NCBI GenBank assembly: GCA_018820315.1
Contig: JAHJOQ010000040.1
Span: 1 to 64,000 of the forward strand
Source: Candidatus Zixiibacteriota bacterium
Lineage (GTDB): Bacteria; Zixibacteria; MSB-5A5; JAABVY01; JAHJOQ01
Reading direction: 5' to 3'
Length of the DNA stretch: 64,000 nt
The notes beneath the pieces were generated by a model. The model made no database searches, was not told where the DNA came from, and saw only the letters and a list, made by a program, of their open reading frames with translations. Made by a program: the position numbers and the translations under genes. Below are positions 1 to 58,771 of this stretch, in pieces (the first letter of the stretch is position 1; each line of letters starts with the position of its first letter).

Positions 1-813
1 AAGCTCGAACTCCGATGGAGAGAGCGTATCGAAATAGACACCATCTTCAGAAAAGACCTGCACCACCGGCACGAAATTGAAACTGTAGTTCGGCGTCAGA
101 TAGACAAACTGCGCGCTGTCGCCGGTGGCTGAGAATTCCTTCGGGAACAGATTCGCCTTCCGGTCCGATATCTGGTACTCACCGATCGGAACATAGAAAT
201 AGAAGTACTGCCTGTTCTCGAGTAGTTGCCTGTTCAGGAACAGCTCCGCGGTGCGCAGCACGTACTTATCCTCGTCGCTATAGCAGCCCTTCCTGACGAT
301 GAGATCAATTGGATTGTCAGTCAGCTTTTTCAGCGGCACGAGTTCATTGAACGCATTGCACTCAGCGAACTTCCCCATCCATTCTTCTTCAATGAATGCA
401 AGCTGCTCACCGTAGGAGAGAGTTGTCGACGAATCGATGTACGCTTTATACGATGGAAGCAGCGTTTCGAGCTCGGTCAATCCCCACTCGACCCATGAGG
501 GGTTATCGAGATGATATTGCAGCAGGATGAAGCGCGTGTATGACGATCCCATCAGGCTGTTCCAGTTCTCATCTCTGAGAGGAGTGCTGCTCCATAGCAC
601 CCACTGCTTGCGAATGTTTTGGACCGCCATCTCCGAAATGAAGATACGGTCATTCGGTTCGGAATGAAGCCGCGCCGCCTCGAGATACTGCTGCAGATCG
701 AGGTTGAGATCCGTCATCTCCCGATTCGATGCGTAGACCGAGGAAGACAGCGAACACACCACAGCCAGGAAAACAAGAGCGAACAGGCATGTTTTGAAAG
801 CCCTAACGACCAT
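1..813 (-). CDS. Exported protein of unknown function, 3' end cut by the window edge
   Basis: The minus-strand frame runs open from an ATG at 813 to the window edge without a stop, about 271 codons. The start is supported by a strong ribosome site (TAAGGAGG, 5-6 bases ahead). Residues 1-28 form a signal peptide (MVVRAFKTCLFALVFLAVVC, then small residues and YAS). The mature part is rich in aromatic and acidic residues and looks mostly helical at first (NREMTDLNLDLQQYLEAARL), becoming beta-like near the cut (YFYVPIGEYQI). I recognise no family. It starts 10 bp after the stop of the preceding gene and is the last visible member of the ExbB/ExbD/TonB-like operon, so it may be an envelope partner of that motor. 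Confidence 0.8.
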   Translation of the reverse strand, partial: MVVRAFKTCLFALVFLAVVCSLSSSVYASNREMTDLNLDLQQYLEAARLHSEPNDRIFISEMAVQNIRKQWVLWSSTPLRDENWNSLMGSSYTRFILLQYHLDNPSWVEWGLTELETLLPSYKAYIDSSTTLSYGEQLAFIEEEWMGKFAECNAFNELVPLKKLTDNPIDLIVRKGCYSDEDKYVLRTAELFLNRQLLENRQYFYFYVPIGEYQISDRKANLFPKEFSATGDSAQFVYLTPNYSFNFVPVVQVFSEDGVYFDTLSPSEFEL

Positions 814-823
814 CGCTACCTCC

Positions 824-1993
824 TTAGTTCTCCGGGCCAGTGCCATACTGACTATCAGGTTCGAGTAGTTCATAGAAGCCCTGAATCTGTCTAAACAGTT
901 CGTCAGCATTGGCGAATTTCCCGCCGTCCTGCAGCTTGCGGATAGACTTTTCACCCCAGAATATGGCTTCCTTGGTTACATTCTCGGCCTTGCCACGGTC
1001 GAGCATATCGAGATCGATTAGATATTTCGCGCTTGCTGCAATTTCCGGATAGCGGCCGTTATCGAAGAGATACTCCGAATAGGCAGGGAAAAACGCGACC
1101 GCTGTGGCAAGATATATTTCCTGATTGTAATTGCGATCATAGAATCCAGTCGTGGAAATATACCCATTCCTGAAGAGGTCAACGCATTTCTGGAAGTACT
1201 CCCACGCCATGTCGTTGGAAACATTTGCGTATGTCTCGGCGAGCAGGAAGTACGAGATTGATTTTCCGTAATCCGACTTGAGCGTGTCGGACGCTATCGC
1301 AGCATAGTAGCTGACCGACTCTCTCAGTGAATCCTTCCGGGCATCGTTGGCATCGGTATTCATGAACTGATCGTTGAGCCAGACTGCCTTAACCAGATTC
1401 GCAACGCCGAAGAGATTCGGATATTCGAGCGACATCATGTCGGCGACGCTGGCCACGAAACTGTTTTCCTCATTGTAGAGCTTATCCTGTTTGGCTCTGC
1501 GAAGAACATTCTTGAGCAGCGGCGAGCACGAGTTTGCATTCTGAATGAATGTCGCCGCCATAAGAATGTCCTTGAACAAGAACGCCGTGTTTCCGGGGAT
1601 GTTGGATGCGTGGATATCCGGTGTTTCCACTCTGTAATAGGCGTCTAGGTACCTGCTGTAGAGTTGGAGCATCAGCCCTTTCAGCTTCTCCACTTCCTCG
1701 ACGCTGTTGGGATCTTTCCTGAGATCTTCCAATGCGAGCAGGTATTGAATTTCGGTGTTGTAATAATACCCCTGGAACCTCAGCGCCGCTGATGTATCCA
1801 GGTCGCTCTTGATCGAGTTCTGTGCTTGCATTAGGTACGACACGTCATAGGTTTTGTAGTACGCATCGAGAAAATCGAGATAGCCTTCACCCTCTCCCGC
1901 CTGAGCGACACTGCCCCATGATACGAGCAGGATGCAGACACAGACAAGTGCGGCCACCGGCGACAACCTTTCTGAGCATTTGGCTGTAATCAT
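824..1993 (-). CDS. Exported helical-repeat protein of unknown function
   Basis: About 389 residues. The ATG at 1993 is preferred because AGAGGTG sits 6-8 bases ahead; a GTG three codons upstream lies inside that ribosome site. A signal peptide is clear (LSPVAALVCVCILLVSWGSVAQAG). The rest is alpha-helical with Tyr-rich helices (YLDFLDAYYKTYD, ALRFQGYYYNTEIQYLLALEDL, YFLLAETYANVSND, AWEYFQKCVDLF) that suggest TPR-like hairpins, without a clear repeat consensus. It lies 15 bp downstream of the TonB-like gene and 10 bp upstream of another exported protein. It is probably a periplasmic scaffold or partner of the proton-driven complex encoded upstream; the function is unknown. Confidence 0.85.
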   Translation of the reverse strand: MITAKCSERLSPVAALVCVCILLVSWGSVAQAGEGEGYLDFLDAYYKTYDVSYLMQAQNSIKSDLDTSAALRFQGYYYNTEIQYLLALEDLRKDPNSVEEVEKLKGLMLQLYSRYLDAYYRVETPDIHASNIPGNTAFLFKDILMAATFIQNANSCSPLLKNVLRRAKQDKLYNEENSFVASVADMMSLEYPNLFGVANLVKAVWLNDQFMNTDANDARKDSLRESVSYYAAIASDTLKSDYGKSISYFLLAETYANVSNDMAWEYFQKCVDLFRNGYISTTGFYDRNYNQEIYLATAVAFFPAYSEYLFDNGRYPEIAASAKYLIDLDMLDRGKAENVTKEAIFWGEKSIRKLQDGGKFANADELFRQIQGFYELLEPDSQYGTGPEN

Positions 1994-2017
1994 GTGTGAC
2001 ACCTCTTTTCCTGGAGG

Positions 2018-2992
2018 CTAGAGTTTATCGTAACAGTTATCATAACCAAGCAGCATGCAAAGTTTGCGCGTCACCTCCTCCAACAACATATTGACCTCAT
2101 CGCCAGCAACCTGACGACCCGGTATATCAACAAAACTCAGATTCGAAATATTGCCAATCTCCTGTGCGTTCACATCAAAACGGACCCATCTTCCTTTGAA
2201 CAAAATCGAAAATTTGTCATCGCTGCCTCGAACGATCTTAAGCCATTGTTCGGACTGGTCCATCTCTGTCTGGCTCACACCTGAATGTGTGAACATGCTC
2301 TTGACACAGAGTCGGAGACAGAGATTCACCATCTGATAATGATATGGGTCGAGTTTTATTCGTGAAATGCCCTCTTCGGGCAAATTTCTATCCGTGGTTC
2401 CGGAAGCTACAACGTTCCTGAATCCGCCGATTGTATCGGCCGCGGCTGAGACGGCTGCATAGCGAAGACCTTCGGATACTTCATTCCTGTCGACGACGTC
2501 GGTTTCGATTTCCACAACAGGTGTCTGAACCGCAGGCAGAGCTCTCTTCTCTGTTGATTCATGGATCACCGACCTGTCATTTTCTTTGGCCATATCGCGC
2601 GAATCCGCCACGATAATCTGCTTCTCCGTGGTCATGGTGTTATCCGGTATGCTGCGCAGTCGTTCTGTCGGCTTCGGTTTCGGAGGTTCCACTTTCGGTT
2701 GTGGTTTTGGCTTAGGTTTCTCGAGTGGAGGGATTTCGATTATGAAACCCGCCTTGCTTATTTTCTTCTCAGGCTTTGACGCGGTCTCAGGCGGATTGGC
2801 GGAGCCGAGATGTACGGCTGCCAGATATCCGGCAATTGTCAGCACTATAGCCAGACCCACTATGTTGAGTATCCGTCGCCATGTGGGGCCATTCCTCAAT
2901 TCAGCCGCATTAAAATCGGCTCCTGAGTGTGACCTGGTGACGAATGTCTCGAGCTCAAGCTGAGCATCGAACCTGTCAAAGTAAGCTTGCAT
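2018..2992 (-). CDS. TonB-like energy transducer with atypical C-terminal domain
   Basis: 324 residues. A cytoplasmic N-terminal part of about 45 residues is followed by one membrane helix (ILNIVGLAIVLTIAGYLAAV, about 42-62). Then comes a Pro/Lys-rich linker (PPLEKPKPKPQPKVEPPKPKP, about 88-110) like the periplasm-spanning part of TonB. The C-terminal domain (about 210-324, with KLDPYHYQMVNLCLRLCVKSM and LCMLLGYDNCYDKL) does not resemble the TonB domain I know and carries four cysteines. The long N-terminal cytoplasmic extension is also unusual. Position directly after exbB/exbD-like genes supports a role as force transducer to the outer membrane or to the two exported proteins that follow. 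Family assignment rests on architecture and context. Confidence 0.7.
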   Translation of the reverse strand: MQAYFDRFDAQLELETFVTRSHSGADFNAAELRNGPTWRRILNIVGLAIVLTIAGYLAAVHLGSANPPETASKPEKKISKAGFIIEIPPLEKPKPKPQPKVEPPKPKPTERLRSIPDNTMTTEKQIIVADSRDMAKENDRSVIHESTEKRALPAVQTPVVEIETDVVDRNEVSEGLRYAAVSAAADTIGGFRNVVASGTTDRNLPEEGISRIKLDPYHYQMVNLCLRLCVKSMFTHSGVSQTEMDQSEQWLKIVRGSDDKFSILFKGRWVRFDVNAQEIGNISNLSFVDIPGRQVAGDEVNMLLEEVTRKLCMLLGYDNCYDKL

Positions 2993-3032
2993 GTTATGCT
3001 CTGTATCCCGGTATTACTACCATTGGGCGTGA

Positions 3033-3521
3033 CTATCCGGCATCTGTCCTATAGACCAAATTGCACGGATAGTCGAGCTGATTGCACGCCGCTATTGTTA
3101 TCGCGATCAATCCGTAGTAGGAATAAGCCGAACTGAAAATGTCGATTCGAATTGAGTCCGCGACGGCCTCTCTGGTTTGGACGAATTCTCCCAGTTGCCC
3201 CGTTATCTGCTGGTAGCCGCCGACCTCAGCCAGCGACTGATTGTCGATGGTGACGAACAGCGTCTCCGGAGGCATGGATCGTTCGAAAATGAACGCCATC
3301 CGACACGAATCCGAGGTGACGTCCTTTTCGTAAATCTCGACTCTGAATGGCGATTGAGTCGTCTTGTCGACAGCATTCGCCTGCTTGTACGGCATGTCGA
3401 TTCGCTCAACCCTCTGTGCTCCGCTTCCTACTATGATGAAGAAGAACAGAAGGATGAACGCGAGATCGGACGCTCCGATGATGTATGGCGTTAGATATCT
3501 CTTGTTATTGCTGGTGGACAC
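3033..3521 (-). CDS. ExbD/TolR-like proton-channel subunit
   Basis: 162 residues starting at GTG 3521, with AGGAG about 6 bases ahead. A short cytoplasmic N-terminus precedes a single membrane helix containing the family's conserved aspartate (ASDLAFILLFFFIIVGSGAQ, Asp at about 19), the proton-binding residue in ExbD/TolR/MotB-type stators. The periplasmic part (about 40-162) contains the VTIDNQSLAEVGGY and LGEFVQTREAVADSIRIDIFS segments, which follow the usual ExbD beta-alpha pattern only loosely. The start overlaps the end of the ExbB-like gene by 17 bp, which suggests coupled translation and fixed stoichiometry. It is divergent enough that automated annotation may call it hypothetical. Confidence 0.75.
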   Translation of the reverse strand: MSTSNNKRYLTPYIIGASDLAFILLFFFIIVGSGAQRVERIDMPYKQANAVDKTTQSPFRVEIYEKDVTSDSCRMAFIFERSMPPETLFVTIDNQSLAEVGGYQQITGQLGEFVQTREAVADSIRIDIFSSAYSYYGLIAITIAACNQLDYPCNLVYRTDAG

Positions 3522-4467
3522 CCTCTATCTCCTTTACAGTCTGATTTCTGCTCACTACTTCCGGAACCGGTGATTTCAAGGACTCGACAACTTCACACAC
3601 TGCAACCGCACGCACGACCATCTGCTGATGAATCTGCGATGCGACGCGCTTCGTGAAGTAGCTGCAAACAATCGACAAGCCAAGATTGAAAAGTCCCCAG
3701 AGACTTGTGATGATTGCGACTTTCATCCCGATGGAAAAAGCCGGAGATTGCGATATGCTCGACATGTAGCCCTGCGACTGGCTGAAGATGAACAGCAGCC
3801 CTACCAGAGTTCCGAAGAATCCGGCAGCAGGTGAAGCTGATGCGATCGACTCATAGAGTGACGTCTCATTGAGATACTCAGAGATTCGGTCGATTCGATT
3901 ACGGAAGTGCAGGTACAGATGATCGTACCGTCCGGATGCATTGGTGACTTTTATCGAATCTTTCAGAATCCGCCAGAAGCGAGATTTGCGATGGTCCTGA
4001 TTAAGTACAGAATCGTAAAACTCCTGCCATGTTTGCGGTTTGTGACCAAGGAAGAAGCCGAGGCTGACATCGTCAGGATAGTACTTCTTTCTTCGAATAG
4101 ACATCGCCAGAAAAGTAAGAAATCGAGCCAGTGTGGATAGAGTCAGGGCGGCGAGCAGGAAGTACACGACGAGAACGATCTTGTCGTAGTTCGCCTGCAT
4201 GTAATTCGCCAGATCGAATCCAACCGGGTCGGTTTTCGCAATCTCCCCGAGTTCCGCCGTGTGAGTGCTGTCGATTCCTCCGTGCGAGCTTGCTCTGTAG
4301 GATTTGTCCATCATTGTGTTGATCTTCTCCACGGAGTTCGCACGAAGCTGCCAAATCAGAAAGACCGCCGCAACAAGTACTACTACCGTAACGATGCTCG
4401 ATATCAGAAATTCGCGGTTTCGATATGCTGGCTGGTCACCGGTCGGCTTATCGTGAGTCTGAGTCAT
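3505..4467 (-). CDS. MotA/TolQ/ExbB-family proton channel protein
   Basis: 320 residues, ATG with a CTGGAGGG ribosome site. Membrane helices lie at about 20-42 and 95-118, and a pair in the C-terminal third carries the family core (ASPAAGFFGTLVGLLFIFSQSQG and AIITSLWGLFNLGLSIVCSYF). The cytoplasmic loop between helices 2 and 3 is long (FLGHKPQTWQEFYDSVLNQDHRKSRF). The small-residue stretch at about 210-220 matches the MotA_ExbB domain. With the overlapping ExbD-like gene it would form a proton-motive-force motor in the inner membrane. It is the first gene of the operon. It could serve TonB-type transport, a Tol-like or a gliding-type system; the sequence alone does not decide. Confidence 0.85.
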   Translation of the reverse strand: MTQTHDKPTGDQPAYRNREFLISSIVTVVVLVAAVFLIWQLRANSVEKINTMMDKSYRASSHGGIDSTHTAELGEIAKTDPVGFDLANYMQANYDKIVLVVYFLLAALTLSTLARFLTFLAMSIRRKKYYPDDVSLGFFLGHKPQTWQEFYDSVLNQDHRKSRFWRILKDSIKVTNASGRYDHLYLHFRNRIDRISEYLNETSLYESIASASPAAGFFGTLVGLLFIFSQSQGYMSSISQSPAFSIGMKVAIITSLWGLFNLGLSIVCSYFTKRVASQIHQQMVVRAVAVCEVVESLKSPVPEVVSRNQTVKEIEGVHQQ

Positions 4468-5001
4468 CTAACCCTCCAGAGTTGGGATCACATTTCGGGA
4501 TTCTGGAAATCGCAAACCCAAAGACTGATTCCTGTTTGTAAATCGTTTTTATCAAAGTTATGTATTGCTACAGTACCAACGACACTCTGCTACGGCACAG
4601 GGCGCGTGACTCTACCCCGTGAAGTCTTCGGTCGGCCGAGTGTCCCACATTAAAACTTATCGCCATTTCCAGGAGGTTTCTTTAGGCTGGGCCGGAAAAC
4701 GCCGTTCGCGCTATCATTCAAACCAGCAATGCCTTAACTCAGACAACAGGGGTCTGACCTGCAACATTGTGCATAACATTGTCTACTGTTCAGCCAAGTG
4801 TTCATTTTGGAAGCGATCAGTGCTCAGAAATGAAACGGTTGAGCTGAGAAGGAGGCTTGTCTTGAATGAAATCGTGCGCGTCTCGGTACAGTAATTAAGT
4901 CACAATTCCGTCAGAGTGTGACTGCCGTCTGGAAACCCTTTCTGACAGATATATAGTCGGTGTGCGCGGACGGACATCGACCACATCGATCTTCTCTGGC
5001 A
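4468..5001. other. Intergenic region, no gene recognised
   Basis: 534 bp upstream of the ExbB-like operon and downstream of the acetyltransferase gene, both on the minus strand. It must contain the operon promoter, but I see no convincing -35/-10 pair. An open frame at 4619-4894 on the plus strand has no ribosome site and a composition unlike a protein. I find no RNA gene or clear repeat here. Confidence 0.5.
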
Positions 5002-6258: not shown

Positions 6259-6810
6259 CTACTCTTCTATCAGAATCGCGGATGCGACCACTGTGGTCCA
6301 GAGGCCTTTGGAGTCTCCCTGCGCAGATTGTGTGGAGTTTCGAGTATGGACTATCACGCCCTTGATCTTCCACTCTTCCTTGTTTTCATCCCAGCTCTTG
6401 TCGACATCGAAAGGCAATCCAAGAGTCGTCGCAAGCATCTCGGCCGCAAGATCCTCGGCATAATCGCCAGCCACTTTGGAGGTCTGCCCGAATCCGTGAT
6501 GCTCGGACAGGTATCCGAAACATGACGGGTCTTTGGGAATCGCGACTCCAATCGATGCTGATATCAATCGGTTTGGCTCATTGGTGTCGTTCCTGCTCAT
6601 AACCGCGTGAACTATCTGTCCCGGTTTCAGGAATTTCAATCCTGCCTTTTTGCTGACGATTTTGGCTCTGGGTGGGAAAATCGAGGAGACGGTGACGATA
6701 TTAAACTGCGCTATCGATGCATCCCGCAACGCCATCTCAAACGAATTCAATTGCTCTTTGTGTCTGCCGACTCCCTTGGTCAAGAACAGTTTTGTCGGGA
6801 TTATTGACAT
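6259..6810 (-). CDS. pdaD: Pyruvoyl-dependent arginine decarboxylase
   Basis: 183 residues. ATG 6810 is chosen because AGGAGG lies 7 bases ahead; a GTG two codons upstream abuts the ribosome site. The family decarboxylates arginine to agmatine, the first step of a polyamine route, using a pyruvoyl group made by self-cleavage. The cleavage motif is visible as TVSSIFPP, so Ser42-Ser43 should be the scissile pair, giving a small beta and a larger alpha chain. Other family segments are [30 protein letters not shown] and the C-terminal [12 protein letters not shown]. Length fits the roughly 160-195 residues of the family. No other polyamine gene is nearby, so it stands alone here. Confidence 0.93.
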
Positions 6811-6956
6811 CGCCACACCTCCTGATTAATGGGCGACAAATATAACCATCCTGACCGAATATCGCAATCAGTATTCTTGCGCATCAGGATTTGAATCCAG
6901 CCGACAGGAAAGGCCTCCTGACGGCGCTGCAAGAATCAGAACCCATTCAGCTAGAT

Positions 6957-9266
6957 CTACCACCAGGACCAGAATTCGACCCTGAAGAACCGGAACACTC
7001 TGCGGAGAAGCTTTCCTCCAAGACTCATTTTGCCGCAATAGACTTTTACATATCCGGTCATCCCCGGTTTGAGAAGACCATCATCATTCGGGATGACGCT
7101 GATTGCGGTGAATACATTCTCCTGCGCGCCTGCTGTTGCCGTTTCGTTGACCTTGACAACCATGCCATCGATACTCTTAGTCGGGTATGAAGATACTTTC
7201 AGCACCGACCTGAGTCCGGTTGCGATGATATCATAGTCTTCCTCCGGCACGGCGATGACTGCTTCTAACGTATCGGTGCGCACCATTGTCAGGATTTCAT
7301 CGGCACCACCGTTGGAGCTGACTCTCCCGACAAAAGGTGCTACAAAGGTCGAGGCTTCGATCTGCTCCAGTAAATAATTCTTTCTTGCTTCAAGTCGGCC
7401 GATTTCGGCATCGACGACCAATAGCTCTTCTGCTTTCGGGCCCGATATGAGAAGCTCGTACTTGGATTTGGCGATATCAACCTGGGCCTCTGCGATGCTC
7501 ATAGCAGTCCGGGCTCTCTCCCACTCCTCTTTCGGGATCAGCCCTCCGTTGAGCATCTTGTCAGCGCGATTGAATTCGTTGACTTTGTCGATGTGCTTCA
7601 GTTGGGCTTCAGTGACCTCGTTCTTCGCGCGGGCAATGTCGGCAGCTTTCGGATCAGACAACAGCAGATTGTATTCAGCACTCGCCTTTTTCAACTCAGA
7701 CTCGATCTGGGCTAGATCGCCCTTGTATAGATTCGACGAAACCGTAAGCAGTGTATCACCCTCGTTAACCGTCTCGCCTTCCTGGAACAATGGCTCTAAT
7801 TTGAACACCGAGAAATCGAGTGTGGCGAGCTGACACACACCCGTATTCTGCGTCTGATGCTTTCCGCCCAGGAAGTAGATCGATTCGAGAACATTCTTTT
7901 CGGGAGCCCTGATCGTGAAACTCTCAATAGGCCGCAGGCGGGCAGATGACGACACGCGCTGTTCTGTCTTGACCAGAACCAACACAAGTACCAGAACAAC
8001 CAACAAGCCGCCCCAGATAAACCATCTTGTTCGACTTACTCGCGAAATGGCGTCCTCCCTGACAGCCTCTTTCACTTGTCTCGCTGTGCTCATTAGCAGT
8101 GGTTTGAAGATAATGAGGAGCAGCGCGGCAAACAAGAGAAATCCTGCCCCCTGCCACTTCTCCACGAGCGCGTTCATAAGCTTCGATCCGAGGAAATAGA
8201 GCAGCAGGACAGAGTACGTGACCGCCAGAATGCTATATACAACGAATATTCGCCGCTCCCGGCGAGAATGCGGTTGTGTATCTGACGATATCCCGAACGC
8301 TGCTTTCACAAATAGCCTTTTCAGGTACGCAAACGCCTTTTGTCTCAGATTCGGAATGTTTACGAGATCGGTGAGAAAATAGTACCCGTCGAGTTTCAGG
8401 AGAGGGTTAAGATTAAATATCAGTGTCCCGAACGAAACAAGCACAACAACGAAAAGAAAATCTGAAACCAGCGTACCCTGCTTGATAATTCTCCAGAGCA
8501 CGACGCTGACCGCCCCTATCAGAACCTGCATATACATCCCGGCCAGAATTGTATATATCTTCTGAGATTTCTTCGGAAACATGTATGAATCCGAGAGATT
8601 GCAGTAGAAGGCGGGCTGGAAGTAGATCAGCAGGAAGCCCATCTCGCGGACTCGCCCTCCGAAATGATGGCAGACCAGCGCATGAGCGAATTCGTGCAGG
8701 ACTATCACGACGAACAGTGCAGCGATCAGACTTGCGATGGTCGATACCTGCAGCAGGTCGACTGCACTGTAAGGAATTCTGCCCGGCAGTGAAAATAGCA
8801 CCCATATTCCGAGCAGAATCAGCAGAGATGCCGCGATCACGAAATGCGGCGAGAAAGCAAACCGCAGTTTCTTATATAGTCTGTCGAGCAGTTGCTCTGG
8901 ATTAAACGTCTCGAATCTGAGATGCAGGATCGACTTGCGACGCGACTTCTTCTTGTCCTCTTCAGATTTTTTGGAAAGAACATATTCGATTCTCGGCGTG
9001 TCGAGGAAAAGCATGTCGTCGAATTTGGTGGCGAATTTCTCGACGGCTTCCGGGGGAACCTTGATGTTGAGCCGGTTTTGCAGAATCCCGGCGATCTCTT
9101 CGGCAGTTGCCTGACCATCGAGAGATTCGAATATCACATATTCCGGCTCCCGCAATCGTATATACCTGCCGGTTACAGGATCGCTGATGATATAGAATGT
9201 CTGTCCCGATGCTTCCTGCTTCGCGACGCGAAGGTCTTCGCGTGTTTTTGGAAGGCTATTTGACAT
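6957..9266 (-). CDS. PqqD-like / M50 metalloprotease / HlyD adaptor fusion protein
   Basis: 769 residues from ATG 9266, whose A is shared with the stop of the ClC gene (TGATG overlap); a GTG one codon upstream is less likely. Order of parts: a PqqD-like winged-helix region (about 22-95, YIISDPVTGRYIRLREPEYV), a multi-helix M50 site-2-protease-like domain with zinc motif HEFAH (His191, Glu192, His195) and third ligand in NLNPLLKLDGYYFLTDL, further helices to about 430, then a HlyD/MacA-type adaptor (LATLDFSVFKLEPLFQEGETVNEGDTL, coiled coil about 520-620, barrel EAVIAVPEEDYDIIATGL). Such fusions are known as peptidase M50/HlyD efflux proteins. The intact zinc ligands suggest active proteolysis coupled to export. 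No dedicated ABC partner or substrate is adjacent. Confidence 0.85.
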   Translation of the reverse strand: MSNSLPKTREDLRVAKQEASGQTFYIISDPVTGRYIRLREPEYVIFESLDGQATAEEIAGILQNRLNIKVPPEAVEKFATKFDDMLFLDTPRIEYVLSKKSEEDKKKSRRKSILHLRFETFNPEQLLDRLYKKLRFAFSPHFVIAASLLILLGIWVLFSLPGRIPYSAVDLLQVSTIASLIAALFVVIVLHEFAHALVCHHFGGRVREMGFLLIYFQPAFYCNLSDSYMFPKKSQKIYTILAGMYMQVLIGAVSVVLWRIIKQGTLVSDFLFVVVLVSFGTLIFNLNPLLKLDGYYFLTDLVNIPNLRQKAFAYLKRLFVKAAFGISSDTQPHSRRERRIFVVYSILAVTYSVLLLYFLGSKLMNALVEKWQGAGFLLFAALLLIIFKPLLMSTARQVKEAVREDAISRVSRTRWFIWGGLLVVLVLVLVLVKTEQRVSSSARLRPIESFTIRAPEKNVLESIYFLGGKHQTQNTGVCQLATLDFSVFKLEPLFQEGETVNEGDTLLTVSSNLYKGDLAQIESELKKASAEYNLLLSDPKAADIARAKNEVTEAQLKHIDKVNEFNRADKMLNGGLIPKEEWERARTAMSIAEAQVDIAKSKYELLISGPKAEELLVVDAEIGRLEARKNYLLEQIEASTFVAPFVGRVSSNGGADEILTMVRTDTLEAVIAVPEEDYDIIATGLRSVLKVSSYPTKSIDGMVVKVNETATAGAQENVFTAISVIPNDDGLLKPGMTGYVKVYCGKMSLGGKLLRRVFRFFRVEFWSWW

Positions 9267-11035
9267 CACGACTTCGATATCTTGTCGAGCAACTTCTTGT
9301 GATACGATCTGAATATATGATTTTTGTTCAGTATGCCAACCAATTTGCGATCGTCTTCGCGCGATACGACAGGCAGGAATTCGAGATCGCGCAGGGCGAA
9401 TTTCTCCAGAGCAGCATCGAGAGAGTTGTCAGGGTGGAGCACCGGAGGATTACTATGGCAAATATCCTGTGCTATCACAAGGCCAGCCAGCTCACGGCGA
9501 TTCACAAGGATCGATCGAAGATCCTGAAAGGATAGAGTTCCGACCAGATTGCCTTTATAGTCGATTACCGGGAAGAAGCTCGAACGAGAATTCTCCATCA
9601 CATTGAATACCTGATCGAGAGAGAGCACATCCCCAATAGTATCATAGTCAGAATCCATAACTTCGCTGACTTTGATCGACTCCATTACATCTTTGTCACG
9701 ACCACCCCGCAGATTGATTCCTCTCCTGATCAGCTTGAGTGTATAGATAGACTCGTTAGTTATACGGCTCGCAACAAGAGTCGCTGAGACAACGACGATC
9801 ATCAGCGGGAGTACAATCCTGTAGTCACCGGTCATCTCGAATATTATCAAAAGCGCGGTTATCGGGGCATACGTCGTGCCTGACACCACCGCCGCCATAC
9901 CAACAAGAGCATAAGCCCCGGACGATGCGGTCACAGCCGGAAAGAGGTAATGTACAGCCTCACCGTAAAGCCCGCCTGCGATCGCGCCCATGAAGAGCGA
10001 TGGCGCAAAGATCCCTCCGGAATTGCCGGAACCGAGTGTGAAAGACGTCGCGGCGATTTTGAGCAGCACCAGCCCAGCCAGCAGTTTGATCGAGAGATCG
10101 CCATTGAGTGCGTTGATGATTGTCTCGTAACCGTCTGAGAAGACCTGAGGAAAGAAAAATCCTATCGCACCGACCGCAAGTCCACCGATTATCGGTTTGA
10201 TAGCACCCGGAATCTTGAGGCTGTCGAAGCGATCCTCAGTGAAGTAGAGCGTGTGGGTGAATGCCAGCGCCACGAACGCTCCTATTACGCCGAGGCCTAT
10301 GTACAACGGAATCTCCCATGCCGAAACGAGGCTGTATGCGGGTACGACAAACGCCGGGTGATTGCCGAGAAATGCCCGCGAGATTACCGATGCGATCACC
10401 GACGAGAAGATCACCGGGCTGAATGTTCTGACGGCGTAATCACCTAGTATTATCTCGAGAGAGAATATCACGCCTGCGATTGGGGCGTTAAATACGGCTG
10501 ATATGCCCGCTGCGGCTCCGCAGCCGACAAGAATCTTCACGCGTGAGCCGGACATATTAAAGAGTTGGCCGATTGTTGAGCCTATTGTCGAACCGATCTG
10601 GATGATCGGACCTTCCCGACCCGCAGATCCACCCGATCCGATGCAGACAGCCGATGCGAGCGATTTGGCTACTGCAACGCGCGGGCGAATGATGCCTCCC
10701 TTGAGCGCGACAGCTTCCATGACTTCGGGAACACCGTGCCCCCGGGCTTCCTTTGCAAAATTATATACGATGGGTCCTGCAATCGCACCGCCGATTGCCG
10801 GTATCAGAATCACCCAGAAATCACCGCTGGTAACCATGTGATTGAGGTAGAAAACACTGCGGCCGAAGAAGAGCTCCTTGGCGTTCTGGATAAGCCAGAT
10901 AAACGCTACCGCCGCGAGGCCGGTCGATATCCCGACGACCGATGCGAGCACCAATATCAGCGCGGTTTCCGACCTTGTAACCTTTCGCGCAAACCGCTTG
11001 TAGAGCAGCCTTGCTAATCTCATGTAATACGCCAT
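9266..11035 (-). CDS. ClC-type chloride channel or antiporter with C-terminal CBS pair
   Basis: 589 residues. The ClC signature segments are present: GSGGSAGREGP with gating Glu141 (the external glutamate), GSGNSGGIFAPSLF, and helix-rich stretches throughout about 22-430. Two CBS domains follow (about 455-580, VMDSDYDTIGDVLSLDQVF and ICHSNPPVLHPDNSLDAAL), which usually bind nucleotides and gate transport. At the position of the internal proton glutamate of E. coli ClC the sequence reads FSLEIILGD, so the aligned residue appears to be Ile rather than Glu; this may mean channel-like or uncoupled activity (inference). Its stop overlaps the start of the M50-HlyD gene, so the two are co-translated. 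Confidence 0.93.
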   Translation of the reverse strand: MAYYMRLARLLYKRFARKVTRSETALILVLASVVGISTGLAAVAFIWLIQNAKELFFGRSVFYLNHMVTSGDFWVILIPAIGGAIAGPIVYNFAKEARGHGVPEVMEAVALKGGIIRPRVAVAKSLASAVCIGSGGSAGREGPIIQIGSTIGSTIGQLFNMSGSRVKILVGCGAAAGISAVFNAPIAGVIFSLEIILGDYAVRTFSPVIFSSVIASVISRAFLGNHPAFVVPAYSLVSAWEIPLYIGLGVIGAFVALAFTHTLYFTEDRFDSLKIPGAIKPIIGGLAVGAIGFFFPQVFSDGYETIINALNGDLSIKLLAGLVLLKIAATSFTLGSGNSGGIFAPSLFMGAIAGGLYGEAVHYLFPAVTASSGAYALVGMAAVVSGTTYAPITALLIIFEMTGDYRIVLPLMIVVVSATLVASRITNESIYTLKLIRRGINLRGGRDKDVMESIKVSEVMDSDYDTIGDVLSLDQVFNVMENSRSSFFPVIDYKGNLVGTLSFQDLRSILVNRRELAGLVIAQDICHSNPPVLHPDNSLDAALEKFALRDLEFLPVVSREDDRKLVGILNKNHIFRSYHKKLLDKISKS

Positions 11036-11934: not shown

Positions 11935-12939
11935 TCACTGCGTTGTCTTCGCATCGACATTCACCGTGATCGCATCCGAACCGTCAGCCGCCACATCGAC
12001 CGGCAGCTTCACGCGAATGTTGTCGAACATGCAGAGGCTCGATTTGTCGGGGCAGAAGTATATCACCGCGTCGATCTGCACCTCGGTCATTCCAGTGTGA
12101 GCATCGAGCTGAATCTCGTAAGGAAATGTCACCTCGGATGGTCTGTCGGCGACCTTGACGATGGAATTATCCGATGTTCTGACATCCACAAAAAACGGTG
12201 CGCCTTCGGAGAAGTGGTATCCTTTTGGAAGATCTACATCCAATACAATCCGTCCAGTTCCCGGTTTGATCTTCTGCGATGACAACTCGACCACTCTGCC
12301 CGCAAATGTCTCCATATCGTCGGGATGCAGCTTCTCAAGCCCGGAAAGCGGCAGTGTCGAGACTTCGCCGGTCTTGATGTCGACCACTCTGATCAGGTGA
12401 TTATTGGTATCGGAGATATAGAGCTTGCCTCCAAGCACCGTGATTCCGCCCGGCTCGCTGAACTGAGCATCTGATGCTTTGCCATCGACATAACCGTGCT
12501 TTCCCGTCCCCGCGAATGTTCTACTGGTCTTCTCCCTGGGATCGATGATCTTGATCTTCGAATTGTAAGTGTCGGTGATGTATAGCAAACCGTCATGATA
12601 GACCACACCGAGGGGATGCTGAAGCCTGACCTTGCTGCCTTTGCCGTCAATATCACCATATTCGAACAGATCTTCACCGACAATCGTAGTCACATTGCCG
12701 TCAGGATCGAAATCCGCCGAGCGAATCGAACTCGTCTCGCTATCTGTAAAATAGAGCTTGTTGCCATCGGTGGAGAGGCCACTCGGTTGAGCGAGCGCAG
12801 CCTGCAACAACGGACCATCGATTCGCGCCTCACGCGCCGATCCGGCGAACGGTTCAGCATGCAGAGTCTTGAGGTCTGCCGACCAGAGTTGATGCGAACC
12901 TGCCATTGCAATATAGATAATGTCATCGTGAACCAGCAT
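11935..12939 (-). CDS. C-terminal part of a frame-broken NHLRC2-like protein
   Basis: 334 residues from the first ATG, but the true reading continues upstream in this frame: codons before the ATG spell [11 protein letters not shown], the expected bridge from the preceding segment. It contains the second half of an NHL-type beta-propeller (YFTDSETSSIRSADFD, HPLGVVYHDGLLYITDTYNSKIKII, EPGGITVLGGKLYISDTNNHLIRVVD). A beta-rich C-terminal domain follows (about 225-334, DLPKGYHFSEGAPFFVDV, YFCPDKSSLCMFDNI), as in NHLRC2 homologues. The upstream segment (12960-13928) carries the lipobox and thioredoxin domain. One base is missing relative to a continuous gene near 12960. Whether this is a mutation, a sequencing error or programmed -1 frameshifting cannot be told here. 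Confidence 0.85.
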   Translation of the reverse strand: MLVHDDIIYIAMAGSHQLWSADLKTLHAEPFAGSAREARIDGPLLQAALAQPSGLSTDGNKLYFTDSETSSIRSADFDPDGNVTTIVGEDLFEYGDIDGKGSKVRLQHPLGVVYHDGLLYITDTYNSKIKIIDPREKTSRTFAGTGKHGYVDGKASDAQFSEPGGITVLGGKLYISDTNNHLIRVVDIKTGEVSTLPLSGLEKLHPDDMETFAGRVVELSSQKIKPGTGRIVLDVDLPKGYHFSEGAPFFVDVRTSDNSIVKVADRPSEVTFPYEIQLDAHTGMTEVQIDAVIYFCPDKSSLCMFDNIRVKLPVDVAADGSDAITVNVDAKTTQ

Positions 12940-12959
12940 GTCCCACGGAGAATTGAGCG

Positions 12960-13928
12960 CTACACTGCGGCCATAGCAAGCTGGTTATAACCCCGCGCCT
13001 GAGAGCCGGTACCGAGGATCGTTGTCACCTCGCGGCTCTTGAGATCAGCCGCTCGAATCAGATGATTCTCTGTGTCTGCAATATAAAGAGTGTCGCCAGC
13101 GAGCGATACACCCTGCGGATGATTGAACGTAGCCATCTCAAACGAGCCATTTTCGCTGCCCACAGATCCATTGCCGATGACATCAAGTATCTCACCATCG
13201 GGGGAGATTATCAGGATGCGATTGTTATTGGAATCGGTGATGAACAACCGATTGCCTTTAGCATCAGCCTTCACTTTACCGGGATACGACAATACTGTGT
13301 TTGGTTTGTTTGATTTCTCGAGCGCGAACTCAACCGGACCGCGCTTCAATTCGCCTTTCGCACCGAAATAGTCGACTGCATTCTGAATGATCGGACCGAA
13401 CACATCGTATGGTCCCTCGCCCGAATGAGTGCCGATTATTCTGCCGTTCGGGTTGATGAGCACAAACGTCGGCCATGCGCGAGCGCCGAAGAGATTCCAT
13501 ACGGCGAAGTCTTTGTCGTTAATCACAGGATGTTCGATTTCGTACCGCAGAATCGCCTGCCTGATCGATTCGGTCCCCTTCTCATTGGTGAACTTGGCAG
13601 AATGCACGCCAATGACCACCAGCTCATCGGCATATTTCTTTTCAAGCCGTTTCAGGTCAGGGATCACATGCATGCAGTTGATGCAGCAGAAGGTCCAGAA
13701 GTCGAGAAGGACAACTTTGCCTTTCAGGTCTTCAACCGTTAGTGGATGATCCGTGTTGAGCCATTCGAGGTTTGTCGGAAAGTCCGGCGCATGGACAGTC
13801 CCATCCAATAATTCGTCTTTCACTGTCGTATCTCCATCCGTTTGTTCCCCGCCACTAACTCCGCATGCTGTAAATAGAAAAGTCGTCAAAGATATGATCG
13901 CCACAATCCTGGCATCTCGAATAGTCAT
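12960..13928 (-). CDS. N-terminal part of NHLRC2-like thioredoxin/NHL-repeat lipoprotein
   Basis: ATG 13928 has GAGGTAGGA directly ahead and is preferred over a TTG at 13946. A lipoprotein signal with lipobox ([10 protein letters not shown]) points to export and membrane anchoring. Residues about 45-190 form a thioredoxin-like domain with [15 protein letters not shown]; the CCINC active site is characteristic of NHLRC2-type proteins. NHL repeats begin at about 205 ([59 protein letters not shown]). The frame ends in TAG after [10 protein letters not shown], in mid-propeller, and the rest is in the -1 frame at 11935. Likely role: envelope thiol-disulfide chemistry combined with a propeller scaffold; the substrate is unknown. 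Confidence 0.87.
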
Positions 13929-56291: not shown

Positions 56292-58601
56292 TCACCACTC
56301 AGGTTCCATTCGTAGCGAAATCGAAAACGATCGTCCTGCGGAATATACACCGGAGCCATGCTCCTTGTACTCTGAGTCAGTGATGTTCTGTATTCCAGCA
56401 TTAAGAGTAATGTCACCAAACCTGATCTCTGAACGCAGATTGAGTGTAGCCCAAGACGGTGTGCCATTCTCCGCAATGCGGGTGTCGTCGATATCACGCT
56501 GGGAGAGCCGCCTTTGCGATCCCGCCGCACGCACATACCCCTCAATCCAGGAGTTCATACTCGTGTGTGCTCTGAGTGATAACATCCCCATCAGCGGGGG
56601 AATTCTGCTCAGAGGTTCATGGTCAGTCTGATTCTCGCCGAATGTCCAGAAGCTATTCGCGCGTAGCTCCAGCGTGCGAGTGATCCACGCCGCATAATCA
56701 AATTCGAACCCATAGATGCGAGAATCCCCGACATTAGTCCGCTGGTATATATCGTACTCACTGGGGTCTTTCTCTCCATCGCCATTCTCATCATAGAATG
56801 TCTTTCCGTCGTAAACACCCGGCTTTCGATCGATTAGACCACTGAGCTGATTGTAGTACAGAAGGAGGCTGCCGTTCATAGATGATCTCTGAAGTTTGAC
56901 GCCTGCTTCGAAGTTGCTGCTGATTTCCGGATTCAAACCGAAACTCGGGGCATCGACTCCGCTACTCGATTTCTTAAGGACTACAGCATCGTTCAAACTC
57001 GGCGCGCGGAATCCTCGAGACCAGCTTGCCATAAGATTTGCAGTCGGCAGAAGCTCATAGCAGAGCGCGGCAGCTCCGGTCAGGTTTTGATACGATTCCA
57101 GGAAGAGTCCAAATGGATCTTCGAGAGGCGATTCCATTTCGAAATAGCTGTATCTCGCTCCGAGTGTGAAACGCAGCCGACGCCTGATAGTGTACTCATC
57201 CTGAATGAAGAATCCGGCCGATCGATAGCGTGAATCATCTGGGTACGCACCCCGTTCACAGGTCTTTGTGCCGTTGCTGACGGTGTATCTTTCGCTGTTG
57301 ATCTTGTCGGAATAGTATTCCCACCCGACGCTGAGCCAATGACTAGGCAAAATCATCGTGGACATCTGGAAAGCGTTGCCCCAGGTCGCTATCCTGTCCA
57401 TATCCGTGGTGATGTCCGATTTGCCGGTGCGCTGCTGAATTCTGCCTTCAATCTCTCTTTGATAAGATACATTCAGACGCACTGAATGAACGAATGAGCA
57501 GAGTAACTTCGATTCGATAGTCAATACACCGAGATCTCGATCCTGCGGATCGTAGACATATTGCTGATAGTCGCCCGTCACATAATTGTCATATCTGGGG
57601 ACATTGTTCTGCCTGACTGCCAGGTAGTCGAGTTTCAGAGTGGTCCGATCAGCAATGCGGTAGGAAGCACAGGTGCGTATGGCAGTTTCCTCCCATCCTG
57701 TCGGTACCTGGTCACCGATTTCTCCTCCTGCGTGAAGGTCCCCGACCTTCCTGTATGTCCCACCAATGGATGCAGACACACGATTGTAGTTTCCGTTCAA
57801 ATTCATGTGAACGCTTCTGCCATTATCTGCACTCGAATATTGGCTGCAGAATCTCGGATGAAGCCTGACTCCCTCCCCGGCAGAGGGCGCCCGCATCGGA
57901 ATCAGATTGATTGTGCCCCCCATCGCTTCACTGCCGTACATAACCGATGACGGTCCTCTGAGCAATTCAATCTTCTCGAGTGAACCGAGATCGATAGTGT
58001 TCAGATATTGATTACCCCCGGATCGAAACGTCGGCTTGTTCAGGCGAACACCATCGTAGAGCAGCAGAACATGCTTGCCGATAAGACCGCGCACTATAGG
58101 CGCACCATGACCGGCAGTAGTCTTCTGCACGAGCACGCCCGGTTCCTCGCGGAGAACCTCTGCGGTAGTCGTTGCGAACCGTTCGGCGAACTTCTCTCTC
58201 GGAGTGACCGACACTCCGGCAGGCACGACGAATTTGTCTTCGGAAAAAGGCGTCGCCGTCACTGTGATGCCGTCAACGGGAATCGTCCTCGGTTCAAGGA
58301 ATATCGCAATATGCCCGGTAGCATTCCTTCGAAGAGACACATAGCGGATAACTTCGTGATACCCCACATGCGATACGGATACTTGATATTCTGCCGAATC
58401 GAGATCGGAGATGATAAATCTGCCATCCTCATCGGCAGCGCTGAGAATGGACCTTCCATCGATTTCTATCGTAGCGCCTGCAATCGGCCTACGGGTAGTC
58501 AGGTCGAGGACTCTCCCTTCAATCGAGTGGAGTGTCTGAGACATTACCGGCTCGTATAAAAGCAAGTATGCCAGAAGCAGAGCTAATAGACGCGGTGTCA
58601 T
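56292..58601 (-). CDS. TonB-dependent outer-membrane receptor with carboxypeptidase-like N-terminal domain
   Basis: 769 residues from ATG 58601, which directly opens a signal peptide (MTPRLLALLLAYLLLYEPVMSQ). The frame is open to an ATG at 58655, so a longer start is possible; neither has a strong ribosome site. A CarboxypepD_reg-like domain (about 24-105, IEGRVLDLTTRRPIAGATIEIDGR) precedes the plug (VLREEPGVLVQKTTAGHGAPIVRGLIG, LRGPSSVMYGSEAMGGTINLI) and a 22-strand-type barrel ending in NITDSEYKEHGSGVY. It would import a chelated metal, cobalamin-like or organic ligand using TonB energy. No substrate hint is adjacent. The nearest ExbB/D/TonB-like genes are 52 kb away at 1-4467. Confidence 0.93.
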   Translation of the reverse strand: MTPRLLALLLAYLLLYEPVMSQTLHSIEGRVLDLTTRRPIAGATIEIDGRSILSAADEDGRFIISDLDSAEYQVSVSHVGYHEVIRYVSLRRNATGHIAIFLEPRTIPVDGITVTATPFSEDKFVVPAGVSVTPREKFAERFATTTAEVLREEPGVLVQKTTAGHGAPIVRGLIGKHVLLLYDGVRLNKPTFRSGGNQYLNTIDLGSLEKIELLRGPSSVMYGSEAMGGTINLIPMRAPSAGEGVRLHPRFCSQYSSADNGRSVHMNLNGNYNRVSASIGGTYRKVGDLHAGGEIGDQVPTGWEETAIRTCASYRIADRTTLKLDYLAVRQNNVPRYDNYVTGDYQQYVYDPQDRDLGVLTIESKLLCSFVHSVRLNVSYQREIEGRIQQRTGKSDITTDMDRIATWGNAFQMSTMILPSHWLSVGWEYYSDKINSERYTVSNGTKTCERGAYPDDSRYRSAGFFIQDEYTIRRRLRFTLGARYSYFEMESPLEDPFGLFLESYQNLTGAAALCYELLPTANLMASWSRGFRAPSLNDAVVLKKSSSGVDAPSFGLNPEISSNFEAGVKLQRSSMNGSLLLYYNQLSGLIDRKPGVYDGKTFYDENGDGEKDPSEYDIYQRTNVGDSRIYGFEFDYAAWITRTLELRANSFWTFGENQTDHEPLSRIPPLMGMLSLRAHTSMNSWIEGYVRAAGSQRRLSQRDIDDTRIAENGTPSWATLNLRSEIRFGDITLNAGIQNITDSEYKEHGSGVYSAGRSFSISLRMEPEW

Positions 58602-58771
58602 TTCGTGAACTCGATCGATTCTCAGCTCATGAGCTGTGGGTCGATGTCTCCTCATCCAGCGCAGACGGATCTGTTACGCAAACATCAGCAATTTAATATA
58701 TAATCGCCTGTTTCACAAGTCATCTGTCGCAACTTTCTGGGAGTCGGAACCTAAAAGGTACCCCCCTTCTG

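Follow-up and report, generated by a model that had tools for sequence, protein, structure and literature searches.

A conserved, lineage-restricted ExbB/ExbD-type motor operon of Zixibacteria with a TonB-like transducer, two dedicated exported proteins and a sigma-28-like promoter element

The window analysed here covers the opening 64 kb of contig C40 in a 3.78-Mb Zixibacteria genome (G000). Within its first 4467 positions, five genes share one orientation on the minus strand, reading from 4467 to 1; they encode an ExbB-like channel subunit (3505..4467, 320 residues), an ExbD-like subunit (3033..3521, 162 residues, GTG start), a TonB-like transducer, here called TonBL (2018..2992, 324 residues), and two exported proteins, ExpA (824..1993, 389 residues, with a signal peptide) and ExpB (1..813, the first 271 residues). 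The ExbB-like and ExbD-like genes overlap by 17 base pairs (bp), and the gaps that follow are 40, 24 and 10 bp. A sigma-28-like promoter element, TAAAG-N15-GGCGATAA (4657..4684, minus strand), lies 217 bp upstream of the exbB ATG. Judged by sequence comparison, this is a real, conserved and lineage-restricted motor operon, a variant of the ExbBD/TolQR kind.

Some details of the gene boundaries bear on what follows. An alternative upstream GTG start is possible for ExpA at 2002. ExpB probably starts at the ATG at 813, which is preceded by an AGGAGG site, as opposed to the 318-residue open reading frame listed from 954, a mechanical call. Because the window and contig C40 start at the same base, the truncation of ExpB reflects the end of the assembly and not a pseudogene; completing the gene from elsewhere in the same genome, as an earlier note on this DNA had proposed, failed, no second fragment being found there. 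The same note had described a five-gene, one-direction cluster with overlaps or short gaps and no adjacent receptor. Re-reading of the coordinates bears out both statements, the nearest gene for a TonB-dependent receptor in the window lying at 56292-58655.

BLAST searches with the five proteins recovered the same gene order in three further genomes (G002, G020 and G026), an operon split across two contigs in G005, and the final part of the operon in G003. Across G002, G020, G026 and G005, identity to the window proteins is 46-58% for ExbB, 51-54% for ExbD, 29-43% for TonBL, 49-63% for ExpA, the most conserved of the five, and 49-58% for ExpB; the ExpA and ExpB of G003 are 61-64% identical to their window counterparts. 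Hidden Markov models of ExpA and ExpB matched an identical set of seven genomes among 133 of the phylum, in which the two genes are always neighbours, and the TonBL and ExbD profiles found matches in six of those seven, all but G004. All operon-bearing genomes belong to the same class as that of the window. Neither exported protein was seen apart from the operon locus in the 133 phylum genomes, and a 387-genome search found no ExpB in about 250 others either. A scan of a genome collection with an alignment query gave two loci, both in metagenome-assembled genomes of Zixibacteria, and one with a single-protein query gave no matches. Because the order recurs at protein identities of 29-63% and all four distribution-tested genes co-occur, the operon lies far beyond chance. 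Complete operons stop at ExpB and have unrelated neighbours from genome to genome; the module therefore consists of the five genes. ExpA and ExpB, found only in genomes with the operon and always adjacent, thus appear to be dedicated to it. The earlier note had claimed as much, naming unlinked homologues as the finding that would overturn its view and conserved gene order as something to look for; none of the former was seen, and the order is shared by other Zixibacteria.

The genome of the window also carries a more distant five-gene copy, including ExpA and ExpB, at C1:4255-9291 (detected by BLAST), followed in tandem by a motor-only three-gene copy that lacks ExpA and ExpB (C1:9827-12314). 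A vertical history of the operon was considered and set aside, since a tree of ExpA and ExpB places G002, a genome of family f1, inside family f6 with a support of 99/100. The G002 operon (on C160) is nearest to the operons of family f6, and its ExpA is 77% identical to that of G020. Given that the tree contradicts the family assignment, horizontal transfer of the operon into G002, or a mis-binned contig, is the likely explanation.

The promoter element emerged as a shared block on alignment of the DNA upstream of the operon copies. The window contains a single match to the pattern TAAAG-N15-GGCGATAA, where 0.03 would be expected. It lies at -217 relative to exbB in the window, -244 in G002, -239 in G020, -274 in G005 and -239 in G026, the last position following from a 32-nucleotide overlap between a contig end and the operon contig. 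All five orthologues with upstream DNA agree at every one of the 13 defined bases (100% identity), whereas the spacer and flanks stay at the background level of 52-57%. Of the 13 defined bases, 12 agree with the consensus for E. coli sigma-28 (FliA), TAAAGTTT-n11-GCCGATAA (PMC2859248), and the spacer exceeds that of the consensus by a single base. In a genome-wide search of eight genomes, every exact match to GGCGATAA with the N15 spacer sits upstream of the operon. A widened pattern, which covers fliC sites too and was chosen after the sites had been seen, gave 13 matches in these genomes compared with 7 for a reversed control. The related pattern TAAAG-N14/15-GCCGATWA occurs 245-282 bp upstream of fliC in G001, G003, G020 and G005 (in G005 via a 141-nucleotide contig overlap). 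We infer from the conserved promoter that the operon is apparently expressed together with flagellin. A search for riboswitches or leader RNAs upstream of several operon copies found no Rfam match.

Two further observations concern this class of site. At G000:C16:11590 (L150:1501-1528), a TAAAG-N15-GCCGATTA sequence lies 89 bp upstream of a gene for a TonB-dependent receptor, a placement that could be due to chance. The flagellin genes of Zixibacteria also have a conserved leader of 200-250 nucleotides between promoter and ATG (L121-L127); it contains a conserved block, AGACCTTGGCAGACAT...GGATGTGGCT, possibly a regulatory RNA.

The ExbB-like protein matches the MotA_ExbB domain (PF01618, 1.3e-8, above the curated cut-off), placing it in the ExbB/TolQ/MotA superfamily. 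It has four hydrophobic segments; ExbB and TolQ of E. coli have three. By hydropathy, the extra N-terminal segment is present in all seven ExbB-like proteins, most of them having four segments above threshold and that of G026 three; three helices are a soft criterion, because the ExbB of the same genome also has a double N-terminal segment. The Thr of transmembrane segment 2 (Thr220) is retained. A MotA-like origin of this subunit was considered and rejected, since profile comparison puts it closest to ExbB (94%, versus 20-61% for MotA); a PDB search with the family returned matches to MotA/PomA only. The ExbD-like subunit of the window falls below the cut-off for PF02472 (E=0.025), and all seven members match the domain, the best at 8.5e-6, with an invariant membrane aspartate, Asp19. 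Aligned by eye, Leu155 corresponds to Leu132 of E. coli ExbD, a residue whose substitution by Gln causes loss of D-box binding (PMC10907165). Cys146 and Cys153, both invariant, immediately precede the Leu155 strand.

TonBL comprises a cytoplasmic segment of ~40 residues, conserved at its start (MQAYFDR.DA.LE in the C40-type orthologues), one membrane helix (41-61), a Pro/Lys linker and a cysteine-bearing C-terminal domain, and so has the layout of helix, periplasmic linker and end domain found in TonB/TolA transducers. Inspection of the alignment reveals an FIIEI-type strand between helix and linker in 8/8 members (residues 83-87, at 2732..2746 on the minus strand in the window). It occupies the place of the TonB D-box, and the G005 version, FTVEMIK, fits the published hydrophobic/hydrophilic pattern. 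The end domain (2018..2398, minus strand) spans ~126 residues with three invariant cysteines, Cys229, Cys312 and Cys320. No Pfam domain was found in seven members, vWA included; TonB_C had no match in a scan of the genome, and the TonBL profile found no relatives in the PDB. The hhalign probability of the end domain against TonB and TolA is <1%, which is weak evidence of absence because a TonB versus TolA control also scored low (2.8-40%). An AlphaFold model from a three-row alignment, with a predicted local distance difference test (pLDDT) score of 59, had no PDB match at E<=0.001; at this low confidence it shows a helix, three strands and a helix, with a helical C-terminus. The C-terminus of TonB is a strand.

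ExpA and ExpB have no known family in Pfam, resemble neither TolB nor Pal/OmpA, lack a lipobox and, as profiles, find no relatives in the PDB. ExpB measures ~361-371 residues in the relatives, and its AlphaFold model from a three-row alignment (pLDDT 44) yielded nothing usable.

Other motors of the ExbBD/TolQR/MotAB kinds are encoded elsewhere in the same genome: a Tol-Pal cluster on C86 that includes TolB, Pal and CpoB, a standard Ton cluster on C12 (ExbB-ExbD-ExbD-TonB-TonB), and two MotAB pairs on C74 and C73. Because each of these is present separately, the operon duplicates none of them. The C12 cluster (L054:3138-8343) contains two ExbD and two TonB genes, as well as a fusion of a TonB domain with a helical repeat-like protein.

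Two published systems offer further parallels to the operon. The vWA transducers encoded near TolQR-like motors (Williams-Jones et al. 2025, PMC12204202) combine a TonB-like layout with a non-TonB end domain and an adjoining motor plus extra gene, and thereby set a precedent for such end domains on these arms; the TonBL domain of ~126 residues differs in having no vWA match, and the docking His kept in TMH-type vWA transducers is absent from TonBL. AglRQS-Glt (Luciano et al. 2011, PMC3169522) likewise joins a proton motor to a TonB-like protein and exported partners, with a link to motility. Its GltG, however, has FHA and TonB_C domains and its Glt proteins have TPRs or barrels, none of which occur in the operon, where Pfam gave no matches to FHA, TonB_C or TPR.

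The reading we favour, with moderate confidence, is that a specialised ExbB5-ExbD2-type proton motor pulls via TonBL on dedicated periplasmic ExpA and ExpB, and that it is made with the late flagellar genes. Sigma-28 polymerase would transcribe the operon along with flagellin, as the conserved promoter suggests. Ion flow past ExbD Asp19 would then turn or move the motor, as in the rest of the family, and the periplasmic domain of ExbD would grip the D-box strand of TonBL, an interaction to which the conserved strand and Leu155 point. Force would pass through the Pro/Lys linker to the cysteine-bearing end domain, and this domain would grip ExpA and/or ExpB and not a TonB-dependent receptor, consistent with their exclusive linkage. 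The last step is a guess: ExpA and ExpB might act at the peptidoglycan or outer membrane to support motility or surface behaviour, and the process served might, equally as a guess, be swimming, surface movement or changes of the envelope around the flagellum. Most likely the machine is linked to motility and is not an iron importer.

Several observations weigh against this reading. In the -10 box the C that the consensus has as its second base is replaced by G, weaker versions of the site occupy the aligned place before fliC in G000, G002 and G026, and the element is absent upstream of both paralogous copies on C1. Flagellins occur in 10/10 genomes tested, among them three that have no operon (G001, G006 and G007), and the existence of these flagellated relatives means that the operon is not needed for a flagellum. 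In G004, ExpA and ExpB lie at a contig edge, with the break inside ExpA, and motor genes were not found in the assembly. At the Glu position of transmembrane segment 3, which we take to be Glu176 of E. coli ExbB, all seven ExbB-like members have Val/Ile, with an invariant Lys/Arg just before it. TonB and TolA dock on their motors through an SHLS motif (PMC12204202); the docking His is present in the TolA and TonB of the same genome, and neither the motif nor a transmembrane His appears in the alignment of 8/8 TonBL copies. With that His missing and the glutamate replaced, coupling may differ from that of known motors. The earlier picture of a specialised ExbB/ExbD motor with dedicated exported proteins nevertheless survives, including its retained ExbD aspartate (invariant in the alignment) and, by sequence, its C-terminal domain unlike TonB (no TonB_C, no Pfam domain, hhalign <1% against a weak control); it had missed the sigma-28-like promoter, the loss of the docking His and the paralogous copies.

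Among the alternatives, the likeliest, though still improbable, is a divergent Ton system. TonBL would here energise one or a few receptors encoded elsewhere, of which the genome offers nine with Plug domains, and ExpA and ExpB would bind the imported compound in the periplasm. The operon shares with Ton an ExbB/ExbD-type motor with its membrane Asp and a single-helix transducer that keeps a D-box-like strand and a Pro/Lys linker, and the lone sigma-28-like site before the receptor on C16 would fit as well, but that site is at chance level for the looser pattern (13 matches versus 7 for the reversed control). The transducer lacks the docking His and a detectable TonB_C, no operon copy includes a receptor, a standard ExbB-ExbD-ExbD-TonB cluster already exists in the genome, and neither two dedicated exported proteins nor a flagellar-type promoter belongs to Ton. 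An envelope stabiliser akin to Tol-Pal, with a motor, a TolA-like arm, and ExpA and ExpB standing in for TolB and Pal, would account for the number and order of the genes (tolQ-tolR-tolA-tolB-pal) and for the cysteines of the arm, which the end domain of E. coli TolA also has. We regard it as improbable, for the operon has no TolB propeller or OmpA-like Pal lipoprotein, ExpA and ExpB matching neither and lacking a lipobox, while a complete Tol-Pal-CpoB cluster is present elsewhere in the genome and the operon is confined to 7/133 genomes.

The promoter and the PDB matches would also suit an accessory flagellar stator, in which the ExbB-like subunit drives the rotor and TonBL, ExpA and ExpB supply the attachment to peptidoglycan that MotB would otherwise provide. 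Unlike MotB, the B subunit of the operon has no OmpA-like peptidoglycan-binding domain. The ExbB-like subunit belongs to the ExbB/MotA superfamily and has four predicted membrane helices, as does MotA; in the PDB its profile matches MotA and not ExbB, and the upstream region of E. coli motA likewise has a sigma-28 consensus site. The chances of this explanation are nonetheless low, the genome having two ordinary MotAB pairs and direct profile comparison lying nearer to ExbB than to MotA. A Zorya-like defence motor is very improbable: the ExbB-like protein is weakly similar to ZorA (E=0.008), but ZorB, C, D and E are absent and two signal-peptide proteins stand in their place.

Taking the motility-linked motor as the preferred reading, a broader proposal can be made, to which we give somewhat less than an even chance. 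TonBL would represent a third class of motor-driven force transducer beside TonB/TolA and the vWA transducers, its end domain being new and able to form disulfides and its two partners dedicated periplasmic proteins, and the operon would be a flagellar-regulon envelope motor that belongs to part of the Zixibacteria and has moved between families horizontally. Known ExbBD/TolQR-type motors pull on a few well-studied outer membrane targets. If the proposal is right, an engine of this type has been put to a new use, in which it differs in its grip domain, has periplasmic partners to itself and is controlled in the manner of flagellar genes, and it would provide a directly testable case of force crossing the envelope without a receptor.

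Two further loci also deserve mention. An Rfam match to PYLIS_3, a pyrrolysine insertion element, lies on C1 of G000 (L028:13372-13470) within an MttB-like gene (12351-13883) that has no internal stop and reads through. In the window, PqqD-like, M50 peptidase and HlyD-like segments are fused in one protein of 770 residues (6957-9269), which resembles a daptide metalloprotease model, below the model's cut-off, and whose gene adjoins that of a pyruvoyl-dependent arginine decarboxylase (6259-6816).

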